A DNA stretch of 38,944 nt from Bacteroidales bacterium. GTDB taxonomy: Bacteria > Bacteroidota > Bacteroidia > Bacteroidales > UBA12170. Below are positions 5,767 to 35,476 of the stretch, in pieces. Below the pieces are notes generated by a model. The model was given only the letters and a program-made list of their open reading frames with translations. It ran no database searches and was not told where the DNA came from. The number at the start of each line of letters is the position of its first letter. Position 1 is the stretch's first letter. A program made the translations under genes and the position numbers. The DNA is taken from assembly GCA_027858955.1 (NCBI GenBank), contig JAQIBR010000203.1, positions 1 to 38,944 on the forward strand, in the 5' to 3' direction.

Positions 5767-8700
5767 ATGAAGCTATTAAAAAAAGAAAAAGAGGACGTTC
5801 TTAAAGTTTATGATACATGGCTTTACAGTTACCTTAATGGTGATGTAAAAACTTATGATTCATTTTTAGATGATGAATATCGATTCATTGGATCAACGGA
5901 TAATGAAGATTTCTTAAACAGAAAGGATACCACTAAATTTTTTGAAAATACAGCTGATCAGTTAGCTGGACAGGTTGAAATTAGAAACAGTAGAAAGACC
6001 TTTGAGAAATTTAATGAACTCATTTTTATTACCGACTTGTTCGATGCTTATTTCCTTAATGCCAACAACTGGGAATATTATGGCAAATTTCGATTCACAT
6101 CCTCCCTTAGAAAACAAAAGATTGGTTGGCGTTTTGTATATCAACATTTCTCAACACCCGATACAAAGGCACAGGAAGGAGAAACAATTGGTACAGAACA
6201 AATCGCTGCTGAAAACCTGCAACTTCGAGAAGCTATAAAAAGACGTACAACTGAGCTTGAGAATAAAAGCCAGGAACTAGAAATTGAGGCTTCACTTGAA
6301 AGAGTTAGAACAGTCGCAATGAGCATGCGAAAACCAGATGACATGCTGGATGTATGCCGCATTATTTCGGAACAACTGCAAGTGCTGAATGTTAAGGACA
6401 TAAGAAATGTTCAGACAGCCATTATCAATGAACAAAAAGGCACATATCTCAATTATCAATATTTTACAGCCTATTCAAAAAGCGTTGTTGAAGAAACCGA
6501 ATACAACAAAAACCCGTTGGTAAACGAAATGGTTAATGAATTGAAAAGATCTGCTGATGCATATTTTACAGGTTGCCTCGAAGGTGAGGAACTAATTTCA
6601 TTTAGGGAATACCGAAAACTTGATAAGCAATTTCCTGATCCATTATTAGATAAGGCAACAAAGGCTCACTATAATTTTTATTCTATTGGTCTTGGCGGAT
6701 TAGGATTAACTACTTACAAACCATTACCTGAAGCGGGACTTGAAATCTTTAAACGTTTTCATAATGTATTCAAATTGGCTTACAGCAGGTTTATTGATAT
6801 TCAGCAAGCCGAAGCTCAGGCAAGAGAAGCAAAAATAGAAGCTTCACTTGAGCGTGTAAGAAGTAGGGCAATGGCAATGCACAATAGTGATGAATTATTG
6901 GATGCAGGTACACTATTGTATCAAGAGCTAACTAAATTGGGTATTGAAAGTGTAACAAGTGGTTATGTTTTGGTAGATGAGGAAAATAAGATTGATTGGA
7001 ACTACACGGCAAATCCTGCTAATCAGGCTATTATGCCAGTTCCTGTTGGTATACCAAATAACAAAACCAAAGTCATGCGTTCTATAAATGCAAGTTGGAA
7101 AGTCCTGAAACCCTATCTGTCTACAGAGCTCGACCCAAAGGAAACTATAAATCATCAGACATTTGTTGCTGAACGCAGTACAAACTTCCCCATATCAGCT
7201 GCAGAATTAATTGCAGTTACACCCGAAAGATTGATTTTAAACAATTTTAATTTCAAACAGGGCTATTTGCTTATTGTTGGCGGACGAAAACTGGTTAATG
7301 AGCAGATTGAAATTATGCTCCGTTTCACAAAAGTTTTTGCAATGACCTATCGCCGCTTTCTCGACCTAAAGCAGGCCGAAGCACAGGCCAAAGAAGCGCA
7401 GATAGAAGTATCACTGGAACGTGTTCGATCCAAAACAATGGCCATGCATAAAAGTGATGAATTACAAGATGCGGCTGTAATGCTGTTCCAACAGGTTGAG
7501 GCTTTGGGTTTACAGATCGTTGGTTGTGGTTTTAATATCTGGGACGATGACCGAAATGCCGCCACCGCATGGATGTCAGGATTAGATCGTATTCAGCCAC
7601 CTTTCAAAACGTCTAGTAAAGAAGATATTTTTCTTCGAATATATGAAGCTGCACAAAGGGGAGAGTCATTATTTGTTGAAGAACAAAGTGGTAAAGAATT
7701 GGAAAATCACTATAAATACATGGCCTCAATTCCTGTTTTTAAGAAGATATTAAATCAATTGGAAAAGCAAGGTCTTTCGGCCCCTTCATTTCAGATTATG
7801 CATTGTGCCTTTTTTTCTCATGGCTACCTTATGTTCATTACGTCTGAACCAGTTATAGACGCTTATGATCTTTTCAAACGCTTTGCCAAGGTTTTTGAGC
7901 AAACATACACCCGCTTCCTCGATCTGCAAAAGGCCGAAGCGCAAGCAAGAGAAGGACAAATAGAATTAGCATTGGAACGCGTGAGGGCAAGAACCATGGC
8001 TATGCAACACAGTAATGAACTAGCCGATGCATCTTTTCTATTGGTGCAACAAGTAAAGGCCTTGGGGATAAATACGTGGGGTTGTGCTTTTAATATTTTT
8101 GATGAAAATCAAAATTCATCTACCGAATGGTTTAGCAACGACGAAGGTTCTCTCCCGATGTATAAAACGCCTAGAAAAGGTATATTTCTTCGTTATTATA
8201 AGGCTGGTCAAAGAGGCGAAACATTACATATAGAAAAAATTGAGGGCAAAGTTTGTCAGGATCATTACGAGTTTTTATGCACCTTACCGGTTGTTGGTGA
8301 GGCACTGATTAAAGTAAAAGAATCCGGCATTCCTTTTCCAACTTCTCAGATTGATCATGTAGCTTATTTCAAATATGGCTATTTGTTGTTTATCACTTTT
8401 GAACCAGTGCCTAAAGCTCATGAAATATTTAAACGTTTTGCCAAAGTATTTGAACAAACTTATACACGTTTCCTCGATCTGCAAAAAGCAGAGGCAGAGG
8501 CACAGGCGATGGAAGCTCAAATTGAATTAGCACTTGAGCGAATCCGAGCACAAGCCATGGCGATGAATGAATCATCAGACTTACTCGACATCGTAGTTAC
8601 AATGAGGACTGAGTTCATCGCTTTAGGCCATGAAGCACACTATTTCTGGCATATGCGATGGCTGCCCGAAATGTACCAAAAGGCCATGACATCAGGGGAT

Positions 8701-11664
8701 GGCACACGTATTGGAATGGTGATGACATTGCCAAGGCACATACATGGTGATATTAAGCTCGTAGACCAATGGGAAAAAGGAAAAAAACCTTCTTTAATCT
8801 TTCCTATGGATATTGAGACCGCAGTAAATTATGTTGATAAAATGATCAATCTGGGCGATTTTGAGCTAGTAGATCCAAATGCGCCCACCCTTGATGACGT
8901 ACGCCATATTGGAGGACTTACTTTTATTATGGCAAGAACTACCCATGGAGAAATTGGCTATAGTTTACCAGGCAATGTCCCCAATCCACCGACTGATGGT
9001 GTTGATACATTGACTCGCTTCGCTGGTGCTTTTGATCTCGCTTATAAAAGATTTGAAGACATAAAGGAGGCTGAAGCACAGGCTAGAGAAGCGCAGATTG
9101 AAGCAGCACTTGAAAGAACTCGTACTCAAAGTATGTTCATGCAACACTCAAATGAAATTAAGAGCATTTCCAATGTCTTTCATGAGCAATTACTTCTACT
9201 TGGTATCCCATCGGAATTTTCTTATGTGTGGTTGCCTGATGAAACAAAAGATGAACATCAGTTTTGGGCTACCTGGGCAGAAGAAAAAAAAGGAAGCTTA
9301 CTGTTTAAAAGCAAAGCAGTAACATATCCACTAGATAAGACCGAAGCATATACTGCAGCATGCTTTTCAGCATGGGAAAGCGATGAACTTGTTCATGTAA
9401 GTAAAATACAAGCTGAGGAAGTTGAAAAATTCTTTACTACTTGGAAAGAATTATTGCGTGGAGCGAAAAAATTAAAAACAGAATTATTTCCTGATGGCTT
9501 GTATTATGCTGAAGCATATATGAAATATGGATGCTTTGGTATTAATATTCGGAGGGAGCTTACAAATAATGAAAAGCAGATTCTTCTTCGTTTTACAATC
9601 GAATTTGAAAGAGCCTACACACGTTTCCTTGATCTTCAAAAGGCTGAGGCACAGACGCGCGAATCTCAAATTGAAGTAGCTCTGGAAAGAGTTAGAGGTC
9701 GCTCTCTGGCTATGCATCAAAGTAATGAATTGAATGATGTGGCGTATGTTTTATTTCAACAACTTAAAAACTTAGGTGGAAATCTTTGGGGAACAGGTTT
9801 TGGACTATTCAATGATGAAGGTGATGAAGATGAGTTTTGGTTTGCCAATGAAAAAGGAATTATGCCACCTGTAATGATTCCACATAAAAAAGATCCCATA
9901 CACAAAAAAATATATGAGGGATGGAAAAATAAAATCGATTTTTATTCTGAATCGAAAGAGAAGATTGAACTAAAGGCACACTACGATTACATGCTTTCGT
10001 TACCCGATGTAAAACCATTCTTTCAGGGCATATTGGATGCCGGATTGGCATTTCCTGACTGGCAACAGTGGAATGCAGCTTATTTCTCGCATGGTTGTTT
10101 ACTGATTATAACCATTGATCCTTATCATGACGAGCAAATTCTAAAACGCTTTGCAAAAGTCTTTGAACAAGCTTATATCCGTTTTCTCGACTTGCAAAGA
10201 GCAGAGATACAAACGTACAAAGCAAATATTGAAGTGGCACTGGAAAGGGTACGTGCAAGAGCCCTGGCCATGCATCAACCCGAAGAGTTGATTGAAGTTG
10301 CGGAAGTATTGCGCTATGAGATGGGATTATTAGGCGTGGAAGAATTGGAAACCAGTTCAATTTATATCAATAAAGCAAATCAAGCTGATGCAGAATGTTG
10401 GTTTGCTCTTAAAGATATCCGTATTCCTGAAAAACAATTACTATCCGATCATTTTAAATTGGCCTACCATGAAACCTGGGTGGGTCGACAAATGTTTGAT
10501 TTCCATCTGTCGGACAAAAATGAAATTTCCATAGCCATGAAAGGCGAAAACAGAAAAGAATGGATAGACTATTGCTCAAAACAGTCAACAAATTTTGAAG
10601 GATATTATGGCGATATTATTCCTGAGCGAACCTATCATTTATGCAAATTCTCCAATGGAGCGGTAGGTGCTGCAACACCTGGCAACATTTCTGCTGAAAG
10701 TTGGGAATTGCTTCGACGGGCTGCATCAGTGTTTTCATTGGCATATTCTCGCTTTAAAGATTTAACAAAAGCCCGCTTTGATTTACAATTATTGAAAACA
10801 GAAAAACGAAGAGCCGAAGAAGCACTGACAGAATTGAAAGCTACCCAATCACAACTCATCCAGGCCGAAAAAATGGCCAGTCTTGGTGAACTCACCGCTG
10901 GAATAGCTCACGAAATTCAAAACCCATTAAACTTCGTGAATAATTTTTCGGAAGTGAACTCAGAATTAATATCCGAACTGGTAATAGAACTTAAAAAAGA
11001 GATTCGCGACGCCGAAAATGAAGATATGATATTGAATGATATCAAAGAAAATGAGCAAAAAATAAACCATCACGGCAAACGAGCCAGCAATATTGTTAAA
11101 GGGATGCTCGAACATTCAAGAGCAAGTGATGGTAAGAGAGAACTAACTGATATCAATACACTTGCTGACGAATATTTACGTTTGGCATATCATGGATTGA
11201 GAGCTAAAGACAAAAATTTCAATGCAGATTTTAAGACTGACCTTGATAAATCACTTCCTAAAATCAATATTGTGCAGCAAGATATTGGACGAGTGCTTTT
11301 AAACCTGATTAATAATGCATTTCATGCTTGCACTGAGCGAAGTCGAATTGGCACTGAGCAAAGTCGAACTAGCACTGAGCGGAGCCGAAGTGCGGATGAC
11401 AAAGATTTCAAACCACTTATTACAGTTTCAACTTTGAATGGAAATGATGAGCTTATCATAAAAGTAAAAGATAACGGTAATGGAATTCCGGAAAGTATTA
11501 AGGAAAAAATTTTCCAACCCTTCTTTACCACTAAACCAACAGGGCAAGGAACAGGCTTAGGTTTATCATTAAGCTATGATATTATAAAAGCGCATGGCGG
11601 GGAGCTGAAGGTGGAAACCAGAGTCGGGGAAGGCGCAGCATTTATTATTCACTTACCCATTTAA
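5767..11664 (+). CDS. Giant soluble histidine kinase: NTF2-like domain, eight tandem sensor repeats, transmitter
   Basis: A 1965-residue cytoplasmic kinase with no signal peptide and no membrane segment. Residues ~1-130 resemble an NTF2/SnoaL-like cone fold, followed by a short coiled coil. Eight copies of a ~187-residue unit then follow, beginning near residues 173, 357, 546, 732, 919, 1111, 1302 and 1488. Each opens with a helix of the form IExxLERVRxxxMAM and closes with [24 protein letters not shown]. The core between looks like a mixed alpha/beta small-molecule sensor, perhaps GAF-like. The transmitter starts near 1695: H box [13 protein letters not shown] (His1715), N box [10 protein letters not shown]1 DNGNGIP, F box [10 protein letters not shown]2 GTGLGLSLS. 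Three 21-bp repeats sit between N and G1. It has no receiver. The signal sensed is unknown. Confidence 0.9.
11331..11393 (+). repeat. In-frame 21-bp repeat, 3 copies, in kinase 1
   Basis: Units at 11331, 11352 and 11373, each a variant of CACTGAGCGGAGTCGAA plus 4 bases; the last unit ends AAGTGC. Read in frame they add TERSR-type heptapeptides between the N box and G1 box. Confidence 0.9.
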
Positions 11665-11670
11665 TTAGAT

Positions 11671-14067
11671 ATGAAACTCAGGCTGAACATAATATTAGTA
11701 CTCTTAAGCATCGGCATCTTTGCATCGAATGTGCATGCTAAAAGTAGTATGATGCAAAAAAGTATTGATGACACTACTCGCATCGGGTTGTTGAATGCCC
11801 TTGCTTTTGAATTTTATAAACAAAGTGAGTTTGATAGTTGCCTGCATTATTCATTAAAAGCATTAAGCTTATCAGAAAATCTTTTATCATCAAAGCAGGC
11901 AATAAATAACGCTGAGTTTTTGAAACAAAGCAAAATACTTAAAGCGAAATCTTTGGCCAACATTGCTATGGGTACGCTAAAAAGCAACTCTAATGTGGCG
12001 TTGGATACGTTGAGAGCAGCTTTATTACTAATGAAGGAGACTGGAAATAAAGAGGGACAAGCCGACATTTATTCAGCCATTGCAGCAGTTTATGATTTTA
12101 ATTTTAAGAATGAAGAGGCATTTAAAAATCATCTATTAAGTATTGAATTATACAGGGAAACAGGAAACAAAAATAAACTCGCTCCAGAGTTGACGAATTT
12201 AGCCATATTACAAAGATATTTAGGTAAGTATGGCGATGCTCTTGAAAATTTGGTTGAATCCCTTAAAATCAGCAGCCAAATCAACGACAGCAGCACAATG
12301 GTTGAAACCTTACTGGCCATGGGATTTGTCTATCTTTTTGTTGAAAAATATGATGATGCCCTGAAAAGTCAAAATGATGCCCTCCTAATTTATGAGGCAA
12401 TGAAAGATACACTGGGTATAGCCATAATACATAATGATATGGGCGTTGCAAATATGAAGGCAGGAAATCTTTCCGAAGCATTAAAACAACACCAGGCAGC
12501 TTTGGAAATTAGATTAAAATCAACTGAGTATTATTACACTTTCGCATCATATTCATATATTGGCTCTATTTATGAAGAGTGGGCCAATTACACCGAGGCT
12601 CTCAGAAATTATGAGGCTGGATTAGAGTATGCAGCACTTTCAGATTTAAAGACCAGCATTGTTGATGCTAATCTTGAATGTGGAATGATACATTTCAAAA
12701 CAGCAGAATATGATAAAGCAATGCAACATTTTAGGGTTGCGCTTGAGTTGAGCCGCAAAATTGAAGACCATACCGGTGAATCTAAAGCAGCCATGAATAT
12801 TGCCGAAATTTACCTTTCCACTGATGAAACAGCAAAAGCTATTTCCTGGTTAATTAAAGCTGAAAAAGTAGTGCCAAAATCGGCATTTAAATTTATGGCA
12901 GCTATCTATGAAAGGATTGCCGCCAGCTACTATAAAATTGGTGATTATGAAAATGCTTACAAGAATCAACAGTTATACTCCCAGGTTAAGGATTCTCTTG
13001 TAATTGCTGAAAATAGGGTGAAAATAACCACTCTGATAAACCGGCTAGATATTGAAAACAAGCAGGCTTTACAAAATGAGAAATATAATAAGATGCTTGA
13101 GATCAAACAGTCAGAACTAAAACGCCAAAAAGTACTTCGGAACTTTTTCCTTTTCGGGATGTTCATAATATTGGTAATGGCAGTAATTTATTTCATCCGC
13201 TATACCGAAAAGAAAAAACTAAATACTAAATTGAACAACTTATTATCGAACCTCAAATCCACTCAAACTCAACTTATCCAATCCGAAAAAATGGCTTCGC
13301 TTGGAGAACTTACTGCCGGAATTGCTCATGAAATACAAAATCCCTTAAATTTTGTAAACAATTTCTCGGAGGTAAGTGTTGATATACTTGAAGAATTGAA
13401 AGATGAGTTGGAAAATGGAAATTTGGCTGAGGTAATAGCCATTGCAGGTGATTTAAAGCAAAACCTTGAAAAGATCGGCGATCACGGCAAAAGGGCAAGC
13501 AGTATTGTAAAAGGTATGTTGGAGCACTCCAGAACTAGTGACGGTCAACGTGAACTCACTGATATAAATGCACTAGCAAATGAATTCTTAAGTCTTGCAT
13601 ATCATGGTTTAAGAGCAAAGGACAAATCGTTCAATGCTGATTTTAAAACTGAATTTGATAACAACTTGCCAAAAATTAAAGTTATTCCACAAGATATTAG
13701 CAGGGTATTATTAAACCTAATCAATAATGCTTTCCATGCTTGCACTGAGCGGAGTCGAACTAGCACTGAGCGAAGTCGAAGTGCAGTTGATAACAAAGAT
13801 TTCAAACCACTTGTTTCAGTTTCAACATCAAAAGAAAATGATCAGTTTATCATAAAAGTAAAGGATAATGGTAACGGTATACATGAAAATATTAAAGACA
13901 AAATTTTTCAACCATTTTTCACAACCAAGCCAACAGGGCAAGGAACTGGCTTAGGGCTTTCATTGAGTTACGATATTATAAAAGCGCATGGCGGAGAGCT
14001 GAAAGTTGAAACAACGGAAGGTCTCGGATCAGAATTTGTGATCATATTACCAATAATAAATAGTTAA
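11671..14067 (+). CDS. Membrane sensor histidine kinase with periplasmic TPR domain
   Basis: A 798-residue kinase. The signal peptide is residues 1-24 (ending NVHA). A long helical region (~30-450) is built of tetratricopeptide-like repeats, with recurring patterns such as GDALENLVESLKI, GNLSEALKQHQAALEI and AEYDKAMQHFRVALEL. A coiled coil and one transmembrane segment at ~491-512 (FFLFGMFIILVMAVIYFI) come next, followed by the shared transmitter with His553 in [14 protein letters not shown] and N, G1, F and G2 boxes. It starts 6 bp after the previous stop, so it is part of one transcript. TPRs at the surface suggest sensing of a protein or peptide partner. No receiver is attached. Confidence 0.9.
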   Translation: MKLRLNIILVLLSIGIFASNVHAKSSMMQKSIDDTTRIGLLNALAFEFYKQSEFDSCLHYSLKALSLSENLLSSKQAINNAEFLKQSKILKAKSLANIAMGTLKSNSNVALDTLRAALLLMKETGNKEGQADIYSAIAAVYDFNFKNEEAFKNHLLSIELYRETGNKNKLAPELTNLAILQRYLGKYGDALENLVESLKISSQINDSSTMVETLLAMGFVYLFVEKYDDALKSQNDALLIYEAMKDTLGIAIIHNDMGVANMKAGNLSEALKQHQAALEIRLKSTEYYYTFASYSYIGSIYEEWANYTEALRNYEAGLEYAALSDLKTSIVDANLECGMIHFKTAEYDKAMQHFRVALELSRKIEDHTGESKAAMNIAEIYLSTDETAKAISWLIKAEKVVPKSAFKFMAAIYERIAASYYKIGDYENAYKNQQLYSQVKDSLVIAENRVKITTLINRLDIENKQALQNEKYNKMLEIKQSELKRQKVLRNFFLFGMFIILVMAVIYFIRYTEKKKLNTKLNNLLSNLKSTQTQLIQSEKMASLGELTAGIAHEIQNPLNFVNNFSEVSVDILEELKDELENGNLAEVIAIAGDLKQNLEKIGDHGKRASSIVKGMLEHSRTSDGQRELTDINALANEFLSLAYHGLRAKDKSFNADFKTEFDNNLPKIKVIPQDISRVLLNLINNAFHACTERSRTSTERSRSAVDNKDFKPLVSVSTSKENDQFIIKVKDNGNGIHENIKDKIFQPFFTTKPTGQGTGLGLSLSYDIIKAHGGELKVETTEGLGSEFVIILPIINS
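13743..13784 (+). repeat. In-frame 21-bp repeat, 2 copies, in kinase 2
   Basis: Units at 13743 and 13764, the same element and same site in the ATPase domain as in kinase 1; the last copy ends AAGTGC. Confidence 0.9.
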
Positions 14068-14073
14068 TATAAA

Positions 14074-16395
14074 ATGAAGCTAACTTATAATAATATTTTT
14101 CTGACTTTAATGCTCATAATCACTTTTGAAAGGGATGGATTCTCACAATCTGTCCACTTCAATTATGATTATGATTCAATAGTTAATCAATTACCACTAC
14201 TAAAAACTGATGCAGAAAAAATAGAGTCTCTTATTTTATTAATTGATGGAAATCCCGAAGTTATCACTGAGCCTCAATCAAATCAAATATCTTTTTTAAA
14301 GCAATTGATTGAACTCAATAATAAAAATATGACCATCAACATTGAACCATATGCTGAATTGGATGAAGCTTTTTCAATATGGCTAGCCGGTGATTATGAA
14401 AATGCATTAGTTAAAATCAAAAGATCAATTGACTTATTTGATCAGCAAAAGAAAATAATTGCCCCACTTCTCATGCAAATGAGAACACTCTTTAACCTAA
14501 TGAATAATCAGGATGAAAGATTTAATTTCTATAAAGAAAAACTTAATTATTATCTGATAAATGGTCCTGCTGAAAATACAGCATCTTGTTACCATGGAAT
14601 AGCAGGATACTATAACTATAAAGCCGATTACAATCTAGCCATTAGCAATTATCTTAGAGCAGGTGCTATATACAAACCTTTTTGGCAAACTATGTATAAT
14701 AATGAAATAGCTGTCGTTGGTCAGATGTATGAAACATGGGGCAATGAAGAGAAAGCAGTTTATTATTTAAACTTAGCCCTGCCTTTGATTAGGAAATCTG
14801 TTGATACTGTGAACATTGCATTTACATTAATGCCTCTGATAAATATAAGTATCAATCATAAAAAGTTTGAACTAGCTCATAAATATGCAGATGAATCCAT
14901 TGAAGTAACCAGTCGATATAAGAATGAGAATAGCCCCATTTATGCACTCGCTGTACTTTCCAAGGCTTTGGTTTTCTTGGCAATGAAAGAAGCTGATTTG
15001 GCATATCCCTATTTAATGGAAGTACAAGGATTGGTTGAAAGATTTGATTTTCAATTTATAAATAATGATGGAGATTTAGAAAGTGATTTTGGCTTCTACA
15101 GGTATTATATGCTTAAGAACGATCGTAAATCTGCTATTAGCTATCTACAGACAGCCTATAATAAATCAGTTAAAGAAGAGGCTAATATCTTCCAACTGAA
15201 ATACCTGAAAGATCTTGCTTCATACTATGAAAAACAGAACCCGGCTTTATCCATACGGTACATCAATAGCTATTTTAAACTTCAGGAAACACTTGAAGAA
15301 GACAATCAAAAAGTCAAAGTAGCTCAGTATGAAATTGAGCAAAAAGAACTGGAACAAAACCAAAGTATAATTGTTTTAAAACAGGAAAAAGCTATACAAG
15401 AAGCCACCATTAATCAACGCAATACTATTATCTGGATTTCTTTGATAGCACTTATTCTAATTATTGTATCGATGATCTTTTTATATCGACAATTCAGGCT
15501 AAACAAGAAAACACTTTTATCACTACGCAAAACACAGCGTCAATTAATTCATGCAGAAAAAATGGCATCTCTTGGAGAACTCACTGCAGGCATTGCTCAT
15601 GAGATCCAAAACCCTTTAAACTTTGTTAATAATTTTTCGGAAGTAAGTGTTGATTTAGTGACTGAGATGAATGAAGAAATAGAGACAGGAAACACCGAAG
15701 ATGTAAAAGCAATTTCTAATGACTTAAAACAAAATCTTGAGAAAATAAGTCATCACGGAAAACGTGCAAGCAATATTGTAAAAGGAATGCTTGAACATTC
15801 AAGAGCGAGTGATGGTAAGAGAGAACTAACTGATATCAATACACTAGCTGATGAATATTTACGTTTGGCTTATCATAGTTTAAAAGCAAAAGATAAATCC
15901 TTCAATGCTGATTTTAAGACAGACTTTGATAAAACACTTCCTAAAACCAGTATTGTTCCCCAAGATATTGGAAGAGTGCTTTTAAATTTAATTAATAATG
16001 CTTTTCACGCTTGCACTGAGCGGAGCCGAACTGGCACTGAGCGGAGCCGAACTGGCACTGAGCGAAGTCGAACTAGCACTGAGCGAAGTCGAACTAGCAC
16101 TGAGCGGAGTCGAAGTGCAGTTGATAAAAATGATTTCAAACCACTTGTTTCAATTTCCACTTCAAAAGAAAATGATCAGGTTGTTATAAAAGTGAAGGAT
16201 AATGGTAATGGAATTCCAGCAAAAGTCTTGGATAAAATCTTCCAACCCTTCTTCACCACTAAACCAACAGGGCAAGGAACAGGATTAGGTTTATCATTAA
16301 GCTATGATATTATAAAAGCGCATGGCGGGGAGCTGAAAGTGGATACAAAAGAAGGTGAAGGAAGTGAGTTTAGAATTCAATTACCAATATTTTAA
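14074..16395 (+). CDS. Membrane sensor histidine kinase with periplasmic helical/TPR domain
   Basis: A 773-residue kinase starting 6 bp after the previous gene. The N-terminal hydrophobic segment (residues ~7-25) reads as a signal peptide. Residues ~100-420 are alpha-helical with degenerate TPR units such as YKADYNLAISNYLRAGAIY and GNEEKAVYYLNLALPL. A coiled coil rich in Glu/Gln precedes a transmembrane helix at ~450-471 (IIWISLIALILIIVSMIFLY). The transmitter has His509 and all ATP-binding boxes. It carries five 21-bp repeat copies, the longest array in the locus, which add 35 residues to the loop before G1. The ligand is unknown. Confidence 0.9.
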   Translation: MKLTYNNIFLTLMLIITFERDGFSQSVHFNYDYDSIVNQLPLLKTDAEKIESLILLIDGNPEVITEPQSNQISFLKQLIELNNKNMTINIEPYAELDEAFSIWLAGDYENALVKIKRSIDLFDQQKKIIAPLLMQMRTLFNLMNNQDERFNFYKEKLNYYLINGPAENTASCYHGIAGYYNYKADYNLAISNYLRAGAIYKPFWQTMYNNEIAVVGQMYETWGNEEKAVYYLNLALPLIRKSVDTVNIAFTLMPLINISINHKKFELAHKYADESIEVTSRYKNENSPIYALAVLSKALVFLAMKEADLAYPYLMEVQGLVERFDFQFINNDGDLESDFGFYRYYMLKNDRKSAISYLQTAYNKSVKEEANIFQLKYLKDLASYYEKQNPALSIRYINSYFKLQETLEEDNQKVKVAQYEIEQKELEQNQSIIVLKQEKAIQEATINQRNTIIWISLIALILIIVSMIFLYRQFRLNKKTLLSLRKTQRQLIHAEKMASLGELTAGIAHEIQNPLNFVNNFSEVSVDLVTEMNEEIETGNTEDVKAISNDLKQNLEKISHHGKRASNIVKGMLEHSRASDGKRELTDINTLADEYLRLAYHSLKAKDKSFNADFKTDFDKTLPKTSIVPQDIGRVLLNLINNAFHACTERSRTGTERSRTGTERSRTSTERSRTSTERSRSAVDKNDFKPLVSISTSKENDQVVIKVKDNGNGIPAKVLDKIFQPFFTTKPTGQGTGLGLSLSYDIIKAHGGELKVDTKEGEGSEFRIQLPIF
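16014..16118 (+). repeat. In-frame 21-bp repeat, 5 copies, in kinase 3
   Basis: Units begin at 16014, 16035, 16056, 16077 and 16098. Adjacent units are almost identical: two GGAGCCGAACTGG types, then two GAAGTCGAACTAG types, then the terminal AAGTGC type. This suggests stepwise local duplication. Alternative frames across the array are also open because 21 is a multiple of three. Confidence 0.92.
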
Positions 16396-16405
16396 AAATT
16401 CAAAT

Positions 16406-18901
16406 ATGGATCAAATTATCGCAAATACAAAAGTTATTCCAGCTAAAATAATCAAGAAAATTGATGATTTAAATAAGCGTGCATGGCTGGTACATGACAC
16501 TCAAGCTACACTTGGATTAGAATTAAGTAGTGAAGCAAAAAATCTGTCTGAAGAATATTCTTATCAAAAAGGATTAGCTTATTCCATACGCAATATGGGT
16601 GTAAGTAATCGCTATTTATCCAATCTTGAATTGGCATTATCCCTTTCCATGCAGGCAATGGATATGTTTTTAGAATTGGATGACAAAAGTGGAGAATCAC
16701 AATCGTTGGTATCCATAGCTGCAATCTATTATTATATGGGCGATTATGACAAAGGACTTGATTATTTTTTACATGGCCTGAAACATGGTGAAGAAGTTGG
16801 TAATAAAGAATCTACAGCTTATGCTTATAATGGTGCCGGCTACATTTATGCCTTGCTGGGTGATCTTAAGAAAGGCCTTGAATTTCTTCAAAATGCATTG
16901 CCACTGAGCAGGAAATTACAAAATTTCAGTCTTGAATCTTCTGTTCTTGAAAGTATTGCATATGTATACTTGCACGATGAACAGTTTGACAAGGCTTATG
17001 AAACTTATATTGAATGCCAACACTTAAGTGAACAAAAGAATGATAAAAGAAATCTTGGTTATGCACTTTTTGGAATTGGCGAGATATTAATGAATCAAAA
17101 AAAGCTGACAGAAGCTAAACCATATTTTTTGAAAAGCCTTTTAATGCACAGAGAGATAGGTTATAAAGTAGGAGAGGCTAACTCCCTATTGCTTTTGGGA
17201 AGATTATCATTTCTTCAGAAAGAAACAGAACAAACGAAAGAGTATTTACTTGAATCTCTAAAAGTTGCCGAAGAAATTAAAGCAAAAGCTGCGATCTATA
17301 TGGCACATGAGGCATTGGCTGAATTATACGAAAGAAAAGAGGAATTTCAATTATTTGTAAAACATTACAAGCTCTTTCAAAAAATTAAATCTGAGGTTTT
17401 TAAAGATGAACAGGAAACCAAACAAAAGTATTTGAATATTCAGTATGAAATGGAAAAACTACAAAAGGAAGCTGAGATCAACCGGCTTACTAATGTTGTG
17501 ATGAAAGAAAAGAATACTGAACTGGAAAAGAAAACCGAAGAGCTTGAAAAATCTTATAACAGTGTATCTGTCTTAAGTAAAATCGGCAGGGATATTACTT
17601 CAACGCTTGATCTGGAAACAATTTTAAATACGGTCTATGAAAATGTAAATCAATTGATGGATGCAACTGTTTTTGGAATTGGTATCTATAAATCTGAAGA
17701 AGCTGCTATTGAATACCGCTTATCAGTTGAGGAAGGAAAACGCTACCAACCATACATCAGAATGATGAGTGACAAAAGTCAGCTGGCAGTTTGGTGTATT
17801 GAAAATGAAAAAGAAGTTTTTATAAATGATATTGAAAAGGAATTCTCCAGATATTTGAAAGATATAGATATAACCTTTCTTAAATCAGCTGCTCTTGAAG
17901 ACGGCAGTATGCCAAAAAGTCCTAAATCTCTTATTTATCTTCCATTACAGGTTAAGGATAAAACGATTGGTCTTATTTCGGTTCAGACTTTCGAAAATAA
18001 CGCTTATACTCAATACCATTTAGATATTCTAAAAACACTCGCTTCTTATACTTCAGCAGCATTATATAATGCAAGCTCGTTTGAAACACTTCAAGGTACG
18101 CTTAGCGAACTTAAATTAACACAGGAGCAACTCATTCAGTCCGAAAAAATGGCATCACTCGGTGAACTGACTGCCGGAATTGCTCATGAAATTCAAAACC
18201 CTTTAAATTTTGTAAACAATTTCGCTGAAGTGAGTGCTGATTTAGTAACTGAGATGAATGAAGAAATGGATGCTGGAAATACAGAAGACGTAAAGGTCAT
18301 TTCTAATGATTTAAAGCAAAATCTTGAAAAAATCAGTCACCACGGAAAAAGGGCAAGTAATATTGTAAAAGGAATGCTTGAACATTCAAGAGCTAGTGAT
18401 GGCAAAAGAGAACTAACTGATATCAATACACTTGCTGATGAATATTTACGTTTGGCCTATCATGGTTTAAGAGCAAAAGATAAATCCTTCAATGCTGATT
18501 TTAAGACAGACTTTGATAAAACACTTCCTAAAATCAATATTATTCAGCAAGATATTGGAAGAGTGCTTTTAAACCTGATTAATAATGCTTTTCATGCATG
18601 TGCTGAGCGAAGTCGAACTGCAAATGATAACAAAGATTTCAAACCACTTGTTTCACTATTCACTTTGATAGAAGAAGATACTGTTGTCATAAAAGTAAAA
18701 GATAATGGTAATGGAATTCCTGAAAGCATTAAAGACAAGATTTTCCAGCCATTTTTTACAACCAAACCAACCGGACAAGGAACAGGATTAGGATTGAGTT
18801 TGAGCCACGACATTATTAAGGCACATGGTGGGACCATTTCTATTGAATCGAAAGAAAATTCGGGAACTGAATTCATAATTTTTCTACCAATTAAAATATA
18901 A
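16406..18901 (+). CDS. Soluble histidine kinase with TPR array and GAF domain
   Basis: Read from the ATG at 16406 (831 residues); an in-frame ATG at 16355 would overlap the preceding gene and add residues that look like its shadow. No signal peptide or transmembrane helix, so cytoplasmic. Residues ~30-350 hold TPR repeats (GDYDKGLDYFLHGLKHGEE, GDLKKGLEFLQNALPLSRK, KKLTEAKPYFLKSLLMHRE). A coiled coil follows, and then a GAF domain at ~385-560, with GRDITSTLDLETILNTVYE at its start and IYLPLQVKDKTIGLISVQTF near its end. The transmitter has His594 and intact N, G1, F and G2 boxes. Only one 21-bp unit is present. Likely an intracellular small-molecule or redox sensor. Confidence 0.9.
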   Translation: MDQIIANTKVIPAKIIKKIDDLNKRAWLVHDTQATLGLELSSEAKNLSEEYSYQKGLAYSIRNMGVSNRYLSNLELALSLSMQAMDMFLELDDKSGESQSLVSIAAIYYYMGDYDKGLDYFLHGLKHGEEVGNKESTAYAYNGAGYIYALLGDLKKGLEFLQNALPLSRKLQNFSLESSVLESIAYVYLHDEQFDKAYETYIECQHLSEQKNDKRNLGYALFGIGEILMNQKKLTEAKPYFLKSLLMHREIGYKVGEANSLLLLGRLSFLQKETEQTKEYLLESLKVAEEIKAKAAIYMAHEALAELYERKEEFQLFVKHYKLFQKIKSEVFKDEQETKQKYLNIQYEMEKLQKEAEINRLTNVVMKEKNTELEKKTEELEKSYNSVSVLSKIGRDITSTLDLETILNTVYENVNQLMDATVFGIGIYKSEEAAIEYRLSVEEGKRYQPYIRMMSDKSQLAVWCIENEKEVFINDIEKEFSRYLKDIDITFLKSAALEDGSMPKSPKSLIYLPLQVKDKTIGLISVQTFENNAYTQYHLDILKTLASYTSAALYNASSFETLQGTLSELKLTQEQLIQSEKMASLGELTAGIAHEIQNPLNFVNNFAEVSADLVTEMNEEMDAGNTEDVKVISNDLKQNLEKISHHGKRASNIVKGMLEHSRASDGKRELTDINTLADEYLRLAYHGLRAKDKSFNADFKTDFDKTLPKINIIQQDIGRVLLNLINNAFHACAERSRTANDNKDFKPLVSLFTLIEEDTVVIKVKDNGNGIPESIKDKIFQPFFTTKPTGQGTGLGLSLSHDIIKAHGGTISIESKENSGTEFIIFLPIKI
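18601..18621 (+). repeat. Single, degenerate 21-bp unit in kinase 4
   Basis: GCTGAGCGAAGTCGAACTGC lies at the same codon position as the arrays in the neighbouring kinases. It encodes AERSRTA and may be the ancestral single-copy state or a contracted array. Confidence 0.75.
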
Positions 18902-18906
18902 ATAAA

Positions 18907-20961
18907 ATGATGCGATATATCTTATTACTCGTTTTTATAGTTTCAAATGTTCAACTCATGGGGCAAAAAGGCAATACCAATTTAATTCGCCAAATAGACA
19001 GCCTTAAACAGGAACTTGTGAAGCCACAACCAGACTCAATAAAAGCTGAAATACATAGCCGCATCACTATAAATTATATGCACATTAACCCTGATTCGTC
19101 CAAATACTATGGTGAAAACGCAATAAAATTCTTTGAAAAGACAAAGAACTTTCGCCAACAAGTATTTATAACTGGTCATATGATGGAAACCAACATAAAA
19201 CTTGGAAATTTACCAATGGCTTTAGAGTTAGGCTTAAGTATTCTTCCCTTAATTGAAGGCCGAGGTGTTTATAAATCCGGTGTAAGTCCCATTTATGACA
19301 ACCTTGGATTAATCTATCATTATCTGGGAGATAATGAAAAATCCATTCAGTATTACCGAATGATGCTTATCAGGGGCGATGTAGATATTAGAGGGGTAGC
19401 TTTCGGATACTTTGGTATGGCAGTGGTTTATGAAAGCATCAACAAGTTGGATTCTGCTTTGATTTGTCTTGATAAATCCCATGACGCTTTTTACGAGGGT
19501 AACCATTCAACTAACTATGAAGATATTAATTGGGACAAGCCATATCAGTATAAAGTCTATCCGGCCTGGTATAACCTGAGAGCTAAGGTCTATCTAAAAC
19601 AAAATAAACCAGAGTTGGCATTGGCTGATCTGCGGGAAACTTTGAATACTACTCTTAACAGTAAGGAAGTTTTTCATACCTCCAACACCTACAATGATAT
19701 TTCTGCTCTCTATAAAACATTAAACAAATCCGATTCCAGTATTTATTATGCTGAAAAAGGAATAGAAGAAGCAAATAAAATTTCATATATCTCAGGTATT
19801 TTAGATGGTAGCAAGATTTTAGCTGAATATTATGAATCCATCGATCCGCAAAAAGCCCTAAAATATTTCAAACTGACTTCTGAAACAGAAAAAAAATTGT
19901 ATGGTGCAGGAAATATGCAGGTAATGAAGGACATGATTGCGCAAAGCGATAAAAAACAAGTGGAAATAGAAGCAGCAAAAGACAAATACCAAAACCGCTT
20001 AAGAATGAATGCCATTATGGGTATTGCTTTCACATTACTGGTTATTGCAATTTTCCTTTTCATAAACAGCAGGCGAAAACAAAAAGCGAAACTAAAAATT
20101 GAAAAGGCTTACGACCTTCTCAAATCCACCCAATCCCAACTTATTCAATCTGAAAAAATGGCGAGCTTAGGCGAACTTACAGCTGGAATTGCTCACGAAA
20201 TTCAAAACCCTTTGAATTTTGTCAATAATTTTTCGGAAGTTAGTGTTGATTTAGTGGAAGAAATGAGAGAGGAAATGGCAACGGGAAATACAGATGAAGT
20301 TGATGTGCTTTCCAATGATTTAAAACAAAATCTTGAAAAAATCAGTCATCACGGCAAAAGGGCAAGCAGCATTGTAATCGGTATGTTAGAACATTCAAGA
20401 GCTAGTGATGGCAAAAGAGAACTAACTGATATCAATACACTTGCTGATGAATATTTACGACTTGCTTATCATGGTCTAAGAGCAAAAGATAAATCGTTCA
20501 ATGCAGATTTTAAAACAGCATTTGATGACGAATTGCCTAAAATCAGTGTTGTTCCGCAAGATATTGGAAGAGTTCTGCTCAACTTAATTAATAATGCATT
20601 TTATGCCTGCACTGAGCGGAGTCGAACGAGCACTGAGCAAAGTCGAACTAGCACTGAGCGGAGTCGAAGTGCGGATGAAAATGATTACAAACCTCTCGTA
20701 TCAGTTATTACATTAAAGGAAGAAGATAAAATAATAATAAAAGTGAGAGATAATGGTAATGGCATTCCTGAAAGCATTAAAGACAAGATTTTCCAGCCAT
20801 TTTTTACAACCAAACCTACCGGTCAAGGGACAGGATTAGGACTAAGTTTAAGTTATGATATTATTAAAGCTCACGGTGGATCACTTGAACTAAATACTGA
20901 AAAAAACGTAGGAACAGAATTTATCATTACATTTCCTTATCAGGAAATAACTAAAGAATAA
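18907..20961 (+). CDS. Membrane sensor histidine kinase with short periplasmic TPR domain
   Basis: A 684-residue kinase, 5 bp after the previous stop. The signal peptide spans ~1-20 (ILLLVFIVSNVQLMG). Residues ~25-340 are helical with TPR-like units (LIYHYLGDNEKSIQYYRMML; KPELALADLRETL). A coiled coil and one transmembrane segment at ~368-390 (IMGIAFTLLVIAIFLFI) precede the transmitter. His430 lies in [14 protein letters not shown], and the N box reads NLINNAFYA. The 3' end of the ATPase domain is very close in DNA sequence to kinase 4. Three 21-bp units are present. No receiver is attached. Confidence 0.9.
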   Translation: MMRYILLLVFIVSNVQLMGQKGNTNLIRQIDSLKQELVKPQPDSIKAEIHSRITINYMHINPDSSKYYGENAIKFFEKTKNFRQQVFITGHMMETNIKLGNLPMALELGLSILPLIEGRGVYKSGVSPIYDNLGLIYHYLGDNEKSIQYYRMMLIRGDVDIRGVAFGYFGMAVVYESINKLDSALICLDKSHDAFYEGNHSTNYEDINWDKPYQYKVYPAWYNLRAKVYLKQNKPELALADLRETLNTTLNSKEVFHTSNTYNDISALYKTLNKSDSSIYYAEKGIEEANKISYISGILDGSKILAEYYESIDPQKALKYFKLTSETEKKLYGAGNMQVMKDMIAQSDKKQVEIEAAKDKYQNRLRMNAIMGIAFTLLVIAIFLFINSRRKQKAKLKIEKAYDLLKSTQSQLIQSEKMASLGELTAGIAHEIQNPLNFVNNFSEVSVDLVEEMREEMATGNTDEVDVLSNDLKQNLEKISHHGKRASSIVIGMLEHSRASDGKRELTDINTLADEYLRLAYHGLRAKDKSFNADFKTAFDDELPKISVVPQDIGRVLLNLINNAFYACTERSRTSTEQSRTSTERSRSADENDYKPLVSVITLKEEDKIIIKVRDNGNGIPESIKDKIFQPFFTTKPTGQGTGLGLSLSYDIIKAHGGSLELNTEKNVGTEFIITFPYQEITKE
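20610..20672 (+). repeat. In-frame 21-bp repeat, 3 copies, in kinase 5
   Basis: Units at 20610, 20631 and 20652. The unit order (GG, AA, GG variants, last ending AAGTGC) parallels kinase 1, suggesting a shared or converted array. Confidence 0.9.
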
Positions 20962-20993
20962 TTATGTATAGAATGTTGACATACAAAAATCAC

Positions 20994-24884
<3,891 letters not shown>

Positions 24885-24896
24885 AAAAATATAAAT

Positions 24897-25271
24897 ATGA
24901 AAATTTTAGTAGTTGACGATGAAAAAGATATTCAACCTTTATTTCAACAAAGGTTTAGAAAAGAAATTAAAAATGGTGAAATAGATTTCGTTTTTGCTTA
25001 TTCAGGTATAGAAGCATTGTCTTGTTTGAAAGACTGTAAGCACGAGGCAGTTCTTATTCTTTCTGATATTAATATGCCTGGTATGAGTGGATTAGAATTA
25101 TTGAGCGAAATCAAACAGAAAAATCATGTACCGCCACCTGTGGTGATGATGATTACAGCTTATGGTGATGATGAGAATTATAAAAGAGCAATGGAATTAG
25201 GTGCAGATGATTTTCTTGCTAAGCCAATCGATTTTATATCCTTAAAAGATAAAATTAAAACTTTTGTATGA
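24897..25271 (+). CDS. Stand-alone receiver (CheY-like response regulator)
   Basis: A 124-residue single receiver domain with no output domain. The acidic pocket is in VVDDEKD, the phospho-acceptor is Asp57 in [11 protein letters not shown], the switch Thr is in MITAYGD and the conserved Lys is in LAKPIDF. It begins 12 bp after the last kinase and overlaps the following cyclase gene by 4 bp, so the two are translationally coupled. As the six kinases carry no receivers, it is the natural phosphate acceptor. It could relay, act as a phosphate sink, or bind a partner protein. Target unknown. Confidence 0.92.
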
Positions 25272-26311
25272 TGACAAAAATATTAGTTGTTGATGACGAA
25301 ACTGATCTTGAAATACTAATCAAGCAGAAATTTCGCAGAAAAATAAGAGAAAATGAGTATGAGTTTATTTTCGCAATAAATGGTGTTCATGCTTTGGAAC
25401 AATTAGAACAGCATAAAGATATTGATGTAGTGCTTAGTGATATTAACATGCCTGAAATGGATGGTCTTACTTTGCTTTCACGATTGAATGAAAAACATAG
25501 CTTACTCAAGGCTGTTGTTGTTTCTGCCTATGGCGATATGGAAAATATTAGGATAGCGATGAACCGTGGAGCGTTTGATTTTATAACCAAGCCGGTTGAT
25601 TTTACTGATCTGGAGATGACTATTGAAAAAACCATCGCCCACGTAAATTATATCAAAAAAACTATACAAGCTGTTAAAGAAAACAACATACTTAAGATGT
25701 ACGTTGATGAAACGGTACTTAGTTTTATGGATACGCGTGAGTTTGAATCGTCCATCATGGCGAATGAAACAGTGGATGCTTCGGTTGTTTTTATCGATAT
25801 TTGTGGTTTCACCTCGATAAGTGAAAATGAAACTCCTGATACCGTTGTTGAATTGCTGAACAGTTATTTTGATGTGATGGTAACAGAAATAATTGAACAG
25901 GAAGGTTACATTGATAAATTTATTGGTGACGCCGTAATGGCTGTTTTTAGAGGTGATCATCATTTGGATAAAGCCATTGATGCCTGTCTCTCAATTAGAA
26001 CCAAAATTGATAATTTACCTTCATTTTCCAAAAAAGTCACTTTTAAACCTAATGTGAGCATAGGAATTAATTGTGGTGAATTGGTATCAGGAAATATTGG
26101 TTCTGTTAGCCTTCGACGACTAGATTATACAGTGATTGGAGACGTAGTGAATACCGCCCAAAGACTAGAATCTGCAGCTGAACCAGGGCAAATTATAATT
26201 AGTGAATCATCTTATGAAAAGGTAAAAGACTCTTTTAAATGCAAAAAGGTGGGTGAAGTGAAGCTAAAAAATAAATCCAAACCTATAATGATTTACGAAG
26301 TGATAGAGTAA
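25268..26311 (+). CDS. Response regulator with class III adenylate/guanylate cyclase output
   Basis: A 347-residue protein: receiver at 1-~120 (Asp58 in [11 protein letters not shown], Lys in ITKPVDF), a helical linker at ~120-165, and a class III cyclase domain at ~170-347. Metal-binding Asp177 (FIDICGF) and Asp221 ([10 protein letters not shown]) are present. The base-selecting pair is Lys217 and Asp286, the combination associated with ATP rather than GTP, and the transition-state residues Asn295 and Arg299 (VVNTAQRLE) are intact. It should therefore be an active homodimeric adenylate cyclase controlled by phosphorylation. The start overlaps the preceding stop (ATGATGA). Last gene of the kinase locus. 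cAMP as product is inferred from residues only. Confidence 0.9.
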
Positions 26312-33505: not shown

Positions 33506-35476
33506 ATGAGTGAAGAACAAAAAAAAGATGAAAAAGCAGTAGAAAATTCTACTGAAAATCAAGAAGTAAAACAAGATGAAGTTTCTGAAACTAAAGAAGA
33601 AGCTGTAGCTGAAGTTAAAGAAGAAGTTGTAGCTAAAGTTAAAGAAGAAGTTGTAGCTGAAGTTAAAGAAGAAGTTGTGGCGGAAGTTAAAGAAGAAAAA
33701 GTTGAAGAAGCATTTGACTGGGATTCTTTTGGTAAAAAGCAAGAAGTATATTCTAAAAAAGATCGTGAAAAATTAGAAAGTACATATTCAAATACTCTAA
33801 AATCAGTAAATGAAAATGAAGTAATTGATGGTATTGTTGTTGGTAAAAACAATCGCGAAGTAATTGTTAACATTGGTTTCAAATCTGATGGTGTTATCTC
33901 TCTTTCTGAATTGAGATACAAAAGCGATTTAAAAGTTGGTGATACAATTGAAGTTTATGTTGAAAGCCAAGAAGATTTAAGTGGTCAATTGATACTTTCT
34001 CACAAAAAAGCACGTATTCTACGTTCTTGGGATCGTGTAAATGCTGCTCATGATAACGACGAAATTATTACTGGTTTTGTTAAGAGTCGTACAAAAGGTG
34101 GTTTAATTGCTGATGTATTTGGTATTGAATCCTTCTTACCTGGTTCTCAAATCGATGTTAAACCTATCCGCGATTACGATATCTATGTTGGAAAAAACAT
34201 GGAATTCAAAGTAGTTAAAATCAACCACGAATTTAAAAACGTAGTTGTTTCACATAAAGCTCTAATAGAAGATGAATTAGAAGCTCAAAAAATTGAAATC
34301 ATTGCTAAACTTGAAAAAGGCCAGGTTCTTGAAGGTATCGTTAAGAATATTACTTCTTACGGTGTGTTTATCGATCTAGGTGGTGTTGATGGTTTAATAC
34401 ACATTACTGACTTAAGTTGGGGTAGAATAAATCATCCAGAAGAAGTTGTTACATTGGATGAAAAAATCAATGTGGTTATACTTGATTTCGATGAGAACAA
34501 AAAACGTATTGCTTTAGGATTGAAACAATTAACTGCTCACCCTTGGGATGCTTTAAATACTGAATTAAAAATTGGTGATAAAGTTAAAGGTAAAGTTGTT
34601 GTTATTGCTGATTACGGTGCATTTATTGAAATTCAACCTGGTGTTGAAGGTTTAATACATGTTTCTGAAATGAGCTGGTCTCAGCATTTAAGAACTGCCC
34701 ACGACTTTGTTAAAATTGGTGACGAAGTTGAAGCTATCATTATTACTTTAGATCGCGAAGAGCGCAAGATGTCTTTAGGAATGAAACAATTGATTCCTGA
34801 TCCCTGGACTGATATCAAAGGTAGATATCCTGTTGCATCTAAACATAAAGCTACCGTTCGTAACTTTACCAACTTCGGAATCTTTGTTGAATTGGAAGAA
34901 GGTGTTGATGGTTTAATTCATATTTCTGATCTTAGTTGGTCGAAAAAAATTAAGCATCCTGCTGAATTCACAAAAATTGGAGAGGAACTTGAAGTAGTTG
35001 TTATGGATGTTGACGAAGAAAACAGAAGACTTTCTTTAGGTCATAAACAATTGGAAGAAAATCCTTGGGATGTTTTCGAAACTGTATTCGAAATTAATTC
35101 TATCCAAAAAGGTACTGTTCTAACAGTTTCTGATAAAGGTGCTGTTGTTTCTCTTCCATATGGTGTTGAAGGTTTTGCTCCTTCTCGTCATATCAAGAAA
35201 GAAGACAAGAGCAATATGAAGGTTGATGATGTTCTTGAATTTAAAGTTATTGAATTCTCTAAAGAGAACAAAAAAATCATTCTTTCTCACACTTTCATTT
35301 GGAAAGATGAAAAACCTGAAAAAACAGAATCAGAAAGCAAAAAACCTGCTAAAGCTAAACGTGCTTCTGCTAAGAAAGTTGCCGAATCTTCTAGTGATAG
35401 CACTACTCTTGGTGATATCGCTGGTGAATTGGGCGCTTTAAAAACTGCAATGGAAAAATCAGAAAAGAAAAAGTAA
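33506..35476 (+). CDS. rpsA: 30S ribosomal protein S1 with repetitive acidic N-terminus
   Basis: Helps the 30S subunit capture and unfold mRNA. I start at the ATG at 33506 (MSEEQKKDEKAVEN, 656 residues); an in-frame ATG at 33440 would add an unrelated stretch inside the leader. Residues ~1-75 are acidic and contain imperfect KEEVVAEV repeats encoded by 24-bp units. Six S1 (OB-fold) domains follow; the middle ones are the most canonical (YGVFIDLGGVDGLIHITDLSW, cut here as one blade; YGAFIEIQPGVEGLIHVSE; FGIFVELEEGVDGLIHISD). The tail is Lys/Ala/Ser-rich. It carries highly expressed-type codon use and is followed by a strong terminator. S1 matters in this phylum because Shine-Dalgarno sites are rare. 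Confidence 0.95.
   Translation: MSEEQKKDEKAVENSTENQEVKQDEVSETKEEAVAEVKEEVVAKVKEEVVAEVKEEVVAEVKEEKVEEAFDWDSFGKKQEVYSKKDREKLESTYSNTLKSVNENEVIDGIVVGKNNREVIVNIGFKSDGVISLSELRYKSDLKVGDTIEVYVESQEDLSGQLILSHKKARILRSWDRVNAAHDNDEIITGFVKSRTKGGLIADVFGIESFLPGSQIDVKPIRDYDIYVGKNMEFKVVKINHEFKNVVVSHKALIEDELEAQKIEIIAKLEKGQVLEGIVKNITSYGVFIDLGGVDGLIHITDLSWGRINHPEEVVTLDEKINVVILDFDENKKRIALGLKQLTAHPWDALNTELKIGDKVKGKVVVIADYGAFIEIQPGVEGLIHVSEMSWSQHLRTAHDFVKIGDEVEAIIITLDREERKMSLGMKQLIPDPWTDIKGRYPVASKHKATVRNFTNFGIFVELEEGVDGLIHISDLSWSKKIKHPAEFTKIGEELEVVVMDVDEENRRLSLGHKQLEENPWDVFETVFEINSIQKGTVLTVSDKGAVVSLPYGVEGFAPSRHIKKEDKSNMKVDDVLEFKVIEFSKENKKIILSHTFIWKDEKPEKTESESKKPAKAKRASAKKVAESSSDSTTLGDIAGELGALKTAMEKSEKKK
33605..33700 (+). 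repeat. 24-bp tandem repeats within rpsA
   Basis: Units at 33605, 33629, 33653 and 33677, each reading GTAGCTGAAGTTAAAGAAG plus 5 bases with few changes (the fourth is extended by one codon). They encode VAEVKEEV units, a charged helix-prone linker. Confidence 0.85.

Follow-up and report, generated by a model that had tools for sequence, protein, structure and literature searches.

A probable REP-type palindromic repeat in frame at one nucleotide site of tandem sensor histidine kinase genes

Five of the six tandem sensor histidine kinase genes in the window (the whole 38,944-nucleotide stretch of DNA that we analyzed) carry repeat inserts at the same site, which is empty in the sixth. We consider it probable that a REP-family repeat entered transmitter genes, was carried along with the transmitter module, and varied in copy number by slippage within a loop that tolerates it. 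An earlier note on this DNA had drawn attention to the arrays; its observation is confirmed as real and its interpretation as a whole is partly supported, and the occupation of the same site in kinases of many other genomes goes beyond what its author could see.

RESULTS

The kinase cluster and its repeat arrays

All six genes lie on the plus strand, as do their arrays. Kinase 1 (5767..11664) encodes a SnoaL-like domain, HisKA (below cut-off), and HATPase_c, and its sensor region is long and, judged by eye, repetitive; its array of three units (11330..11393) has a 21-bp period and a last unit ending AAGTGC. Kinase 2 (11671..14067; TPR sensor, HisKA, and HATPase_c) carries two units (13742..13784), and kinase 3 (14074..16395; TPR-like sensor with TPR_12 just below cut-off, HisKA, and HATPase_c) carries five (16013..16118). 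Kinase 4 (16355..18901; TPR and GAF sensor, HisKA, and HATPase_c) holds a lone degenerate unit of the 24-bp form (18598..18621), and kinase 5 (18907..20961; TPR sensor, HisKA, and HATPase_c) has three units (20609..20672). In kinase 6 (20964..24884), the transmitter of which is more distant, the insert site is empty and NNAFYA is followed directly by VTDKKKQQPENYKPTV. The gene directly after the cluster, coding for a response regulator fused to an adenylate/guanylate cyclase (25268..26311, plus strand), is by its neighborhood a possible common output partner of the kinases. Two further repeats were seen in the window: a (TAG)12 trinucleotide run at 23480-23516, which encodes poly-serine in the sensor part of kinase 6, and a 24-bp tandem repeat of 4.7 copies within an S1-domain protein gene (33585-33697).

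The unit has the form (G)CACTGAGCRNAGYCGAA.., and a 20-mer allowing up to 3 mismatches matched 11 times in the window versus 0 times in 100 dinucleotide shuffles. Tandem Repeats Finder reported three 21-bp arrays among the kinases, namely, in kinases 1, 3, and 5. All units are read in a single frame, C-(TERSRTx)n-TERSRSA or near, and the insert stands directly after the N box (NNAFH/YA) and ahead of the G1 box (DNGNGI). Open reading frames and an alignment of the units bear out what the earlier note had described, i.e., 3, 2, 5, 1, and 3 units between these boxes and none in kinase 6, copy changes that keep the frame (copy number varies by whole codons), and near-identical neighbors in kinase 3, in which unit 1 equals unit 2 and unit 3 equals unit 4. 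Two of its statements needed narrowing: the repeat is open in frames other than the kinase one, though in four of the six rather than in all, and the final AAGTGC is not universal, since the kinase 4 unit ends AACTGC. Rfam gave no match at window positions 11000-21000, and an RNA family was rejected as the identity of the repeat on that account. Folded as single-stranded DNA, the arrays of kinases 1, 3, and 5 showed no greater stability than their shuffles (z -0.54, 1.75, and 0.86, respectively), so the palindrome is visible mainly in the last units and in dispersed relatives.

A dispersed family of REP-type repeats

The unit also occurs outside kinase genes, as the earlier note had suspected: of 19 exact matches to a stringent pattern in its own genome (the pattern misses the kinase 4 unit), 13 are in the kinase arrays and 6 lie outside the cluster, where one non-kinase copy is nested within a second. 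The exact pattern is present in 13 of 59 relatives (own genome left out), and six relatives gave 100 matches, 17 at kinase sites by position and 83 elsewhere. We examined 82 dispersed copies, which are part of the matches from the own genome and the six relatives. These copies have the core CTGAGCNNAGYCGAAG in common and form a short, imperfect hairpin, CT-GAGCGNAGYCGA-AG, the outer stem of which is variable and which often bears a 5' GTC or CCTGT tag (GTC in 42 of the 82). The outer stem letters change in pairs (TA..TA, GG..CC, CC..GG, TC..GA, CA..TG, and TG..CA), and 2.29 of 3 outer pairs are formed versus 1.34 in re-dealt copies, i.e., the hairpin covaries. Among the same 82 copies, the canonical tags are nearly missing, with CGTC at the foot in 2 and GTAG within 18 nt upstream in 1. 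From this REP anatomy, and despite the missing canonical GTAG/CGTC tag, we assign the unit to a REP-type repeat family. The claim of a palindromic repeat thus holds for the family, with its covarying dispersed hairpins, even though the three window arrays have no folding advantage over shuffles.

Several dispersed copies lie within open frames, also in reading frames other than that of the kinases, and 24-bp tandem copies occur outside kinases. These observations bear on whether the arrays could have arisen from coding sequence native to the kinases by plain slippage of tandem repeats, without a mobile-type element. Identical neighboring units are what such slippage would leave; however, the unit is found outside kinases, in other reading frames, and with hairpin covariation, and clean empty sites exist (see below), so we regard this explanation as scarcely credible.

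A RAYT-like open reading frame was found in the same genome. At locus L014, an inverted REP pair, which includes one of the six copies outside the cluster, lies in frame in an HsdS-like gene (39-827; Methylase_S, E 1.7e-9), and the RAYT-like ORF follows that gene at 830-1501, with the REP pair ~0.6 kb upstream of it. Its match to REP_Tyr_transpos (NF047646; E 1.3e-15, 57.6 bits) is below the 80-bit curated cut-off, and it had no Pfam match. Judged by eye, its motifs NHIH, WQ, and YIINNP fit those given for RAYT subclass 2.4 (NH[IFV]H, WQ, and YIxNNP; PMC6006769), and a repetitive GVGFGV tract lies between the HuH and WQ motifs. Y1_Tnp matches in the genome number 12.

Probable carriage with the transmitter module and slippage

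The resemblance among kinases 1 to 5 is limited to the final 726-856 bp, where identity is 72-87% (in two pieces for kinases 3 and 4), as exemplified by the shared transmitter module of kinase 1 (10852..11660, plus strand; 77% DNA identity to kinase 3), and a comparison of their sensor parts gave no match over 60 bp. A loop-masked tree likewise places the five in one group (SH-aLRT 83, not starred). With homology limited to the transmitter and the genes grouped in this way, the likeliest course is that a single loaded transmitter was copied onto sensors unrelated to one another. Of the proposal that an intergenic-type palindrome had colonized coding DNA, in-frame entry is supported, but separate colonization of each of the five kinases is not. 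Ten congeners were also searched, 4 of which are under 90% complete: at E 1e-25, nine were without a match and the tenth gave one of 38%, and because the cluster was not found in them it was probably acquired.

Copy number changes in steps of 21 or 24 bp. Neighboring paralogues differ by eight residues, and eight-residue tandem units are present in other kinases. The identical adjacent units of kinase 3, these tandem units, the 24-bp tandem copies outside kinases, and the eight-residue differences between paralogues fit slippage.

The same nucleotide is occupied in other kinases

A frame-locked scan of genome contigs yielded 74 stretches with 85 matches, and 82 further kinases were recognized by N-box context; the matches at L030, L037, and L040 are not kinases. 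By record title, nearly all 82 kinase genes are from Bacteroidota or Balneolaceae, with one record titled Desulfobacteraceae and one labeled only "bacterium." In these kinases the insert comprises eight residues, C-A/T-E-R-S-R-S-A/T, and a similar peptide recurs in many lineages. As the frame-locked pattern itself fixed the position, position was tested separately by allowing a gap of 0-30 bases. All 63 matches, in 44 of 45 genomes picked for holding an exact-site copy, fell at gap 5, and the reversed element was found at the kinase site in 0 of the 45; since most of the 63 are genes of the frame-locked scan, the new information is the absence of other positions. Likewise, in an even phylum sample, 3 of 394 genomes matched (own included), only at gap 5, and none of the 394 had the reversed element. 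The gapped patterns start with AAT and so miss AAC variants, and because the filled kinases were found with an element-fixing pattern, diverged copies are undercounted. In the literature searched, none of the titles and abstract openings listed described a REP insert at the kinase N-box site. Kinase contig L028 is placed in a Desulfobacteraceae metagenome bin, yet the identity of its transmitter to those in the window reaches 82% (125 columns); this contig is either misbinned or transferred.

A kinase-type 23-mer, TGYRCTGAGCNNAGYCGAAGYRC, matched 47 times in 26 of 31 genomes, and 45 of these matches fall at kinase sites, where 5 represent the second unit of an array; the two others, one in a tandem array and one at another locus, are apparently intergenic. 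The own genome gave 0 matches to the 23-mer because its units end differently, so the argument for a resident subclass rests on the other genomes; in addition, the 23-mer letters coincide with the codons of C-A/T-E-x-S-R-S-A/T, and coding constraint could also produce the pattern. Both outer stem pairs are Watson-Crick in 64 of 82 dispersed versus 25 of 85 kinase copies (p 2.6e-10), the latter being 80 copies from loci and 5 from the window, with the kinase copies of L059 and L085 excluded. In other genomes, the kinase copies thus appear to form a resident subclass that differs from the dispersed copies nearby and in which the hairpin has eroded. Since they are a separate subclass there, we rejected the view that each kinase was filled solely by fresh insertion from the local pool.

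Empty and filled sites, gains and losses

Paralogues within one genome read NNAFDA/MR (the slash marks the empty site) and NNAFDA[CAERSRST]MR, and a second pair, again within one genome, reads NNAFYA/VHEK and NNAFYA[CAERSRST]VYEK. Clean empty sites adjoin filled ones in the same tandem clusters. The Ala codon is GCC in 27 of 38 filled sites (Met or Val directly after) versus 10 of 47 empty sites (p 5e-5), and this excess of third-base C probably arrived with the insert. The last insert base differs from the third base of the empty Ala codon (p 0.013), which counts against plain displacement of the Ala third base to the end of the insert.

With the insert-free kinase 6 as query against 158 genomes and at most 18 candidates scored per genome, family kinases were found in 16 genomes (own included), with at least 53 matches in the other 15. 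The element core was found in none of the 45 stretches covering 53 unselected family matches in these 15 genomes; loops were readable in 43 by the loop motif and in 49 stretches by a looser motif (some misread), and those of G158 by neither. With 0 of 53 unselected kinases carrying the insert, an empty site looks like the ancestral condition, and the insert looks derived and rare. On the same count we rejected a single ancient insertion retained in all kinases.

We then have to weigh a site-specific landing pad, whereby a RAYT would repeatedly insert a REP at the N-box DNA (..AYGC/N) and most kinases would have been filled separately. Presence of the insert is scattered: a loop-masked tree of 117 cores requires 24 changes, 11 of them forced by starred branches, versus a shuffled mean of 27.6 (22 of 500 shuffles were as low as 24). 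A tree of 226 cores (93 filled, with partial and decayed forms scored as filled) requires 46 changes, which under an empty root, and with both kinds of change costed equally, resolve into 29 gains and 17 losses; if a gain costs as much as ten losses, however, 2 gains are enough, with 66 losses. The two trees were built quickly from selected rows and have many weak forks. Slippage between the flanking TGC repeats could also remove the insert exactly and so mimic the scatter. The single position and single orientation would suit a landing pad, as would the NNAFDA and NNAFYA families, which differ in the codon upstream of the Ala (D/Y) and in that downstream of the insert (M/V). Since these codons flank the insert within a few bases, they are unlikely to have been left behind by conversion, and gene conversion moving the insert between the two families was accordingly judged unlikely; at least two insertions at the same nucleotide would follow. 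That the insert recurs at exactly this site in two deep families suggests that inheritance was supplemented by some targeted re-insertion. Moreover, in three REP-in-REP nested insertions (L164 386, L164 458, and L019 1489, two of them thus in one locus) the break always comes immediately behind CTGAGC, which is likewise a GC junction and a possible target preference. Against separate filling stand the kinase copies in other genomes, which are not of the locally abundant subclass and whose hairpin is eroded. On balance, we rate a landing pad as the cause of most filled sites a clearly weaker candidate, albeit one to be taken seriously, and favor entry followed by carriage with the module.

The loop and the predicted structure

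Element-free loops of 85 kinases fold with a mean z of -1.12 versus -0.04 and 0.01 in equal-length same-gene controls, with z below -2 in 24% versus 4% and 2% of the controls, and element-bearing loops (33 kinases) fold less well than element-free ones (mean z -0.60); 118 of 121 cores were used, and paralogues are not independent. The better folding of element-free loops relative to controls suggests that several palindromic repeats gather in this turn. Other peptides recur in the same kinase loop (L202-L233), namely, NSEFLIHNSEL, KTEDGRRKTEDG, LEGFENLQGL, and KSPSGDLG, which are possibly further palindromic repeat families; sharing of 13-mers between other loop inserts and dispersed repeats was weak, with unequal controls, and is given no weight here. 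In L213 (minus strand, core 13761), a second repeat apparently sits in frame within the kinase insert itself, CAER[LAQSEVEG]SRSTVNEKAKS. A broader proposal is that a REP/RAYT system has specialized on sensor-kinase genes, with one nucleotide of the conserved N-box sequence as a strand-specific target filled many times across Bacteroidota and the loop serving as landing pad for other palindromic repeats as well; we hold this to be rather doubtful.

For the kinase 3 transmitter, 49 sequences gave a structure model with a mean pLDDT of 81. The insert spans residues 180-215, and in the model the N-box helix runs on through about 15 of them, as far as residue 194; pLDDT then drops under 50 for residues 201-217, before a strand follows at 224. 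What we take to be the ATP lid is a different low-confidence stretch, 262-270, with the F-box and G2 motifs on either side. The insert is thus predicted to be a flexible extension, i.e., a helix extension followed by a disordered loop, apart from the presumed ATP lid. The earlier suggestion that it may tune the ATP-binding loop finds no support in the model, in which the insert connects the N-box helix to the strand that follows.

These data also bear on a functional loop, in which the peptide, which often has a Cys and contains two Arg, or the number of its copies would tune the catalytic domain or a partner contact and be kept by selection. Much the same peptide is found across many lineages and the arrays keep the frame, as such selection would have it. 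However, none of the 53 unselected family matches carries the insert, decayed forms exist (CNERNQST and CAERGRST), unrelated inserts occupy the same loop, and the model places the insert away from the ATP lid, for the most part at low confidence. Nor is there an excess of Arg conservation: the Arg codons are present in 80 of 85 kinase versus 73 of 82 dispersed copies (p 0.27), counts by which protein-level selection is neither shown nor excluded. We find a functional loop very improbable, and the insert is apparently a tolerated passenger rather than a tuning device.

DISCUSSION

In the scenario that we favor, i.e., entry, carriage with the module, and slippage, the REP would have entered transmitter genes in the form of a 24-bp piece, CTGTRCTGAGCGNAGYCGAAGYRC. 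It would have split the last codon of the N box, an Ala codon, after its second base, thereby adding the eight codons C-A/T-E-R-S-R-S-A/T to a length-tolerant surface turn. A RAYT-type HUH transposase may have made the original insertion. The insert would then have been carried with the transmitter module through duplication, joining to new sensors, and horizontal movement, and slippage between short direct repeats would have expanded or removed it, as 21-bp arrays here and mostly 24-bp ones elsewhere. The peptide itself most likely forms a flexible loop that the kinase tolerates and that plays no part in catalysis. As one site appears to have been filled repeatedly and clean empty neighbors exist, the target choice of a REP transposase, the tolerance of the loop, and the spread of the module become directly testable.

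In-frame REPs have been described before. GTAG/CGTC-tagged REPs are short palindromes, mostly intergenic and some in frame in genes, and CGTC repeats are reported in Bacteroidetes (PMC3733652). That account places them in a variety of unrelated proteins, whereas here one homologous site is occupied in many genomes, and the term "histidine kinase" does not occur in its main text. The same source describes rickettsial palindromic elements, in-frame palindromic repeats in coding DNA. The likeness to these that the earlier note had drawn is apt as regards the in-frame entry of a palindromic repeat into coding DNA, but it is one of mode only: host phylum and genes differ, and the tandem 21/24-bp arrays set our case apart.

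Among the published descriptions considered, the closest precedent is RAYT/TnpA_REP subclass 2.4, which is reported to be abundant in Bacteroidetes and Cyanobacteria and in which REPs lie in frame in a variable region of the transposase gene itself (PMC6006769). In both systems, a single gene family has received REPs in frame, and in both the region concerned is variable. They differ in the host gene, a transposase there and a sensor-kinase transmitter with one nucleotide-exact site here, and in the tag, GT[AG]G there versus GTC or CCTGT here. In-frame REPs have thus been reported in assorted genes and in the REP transposase gene; in our case, one homologous nucleotide site of a very large signaling family appears to have been filled more than once, in one orientation.
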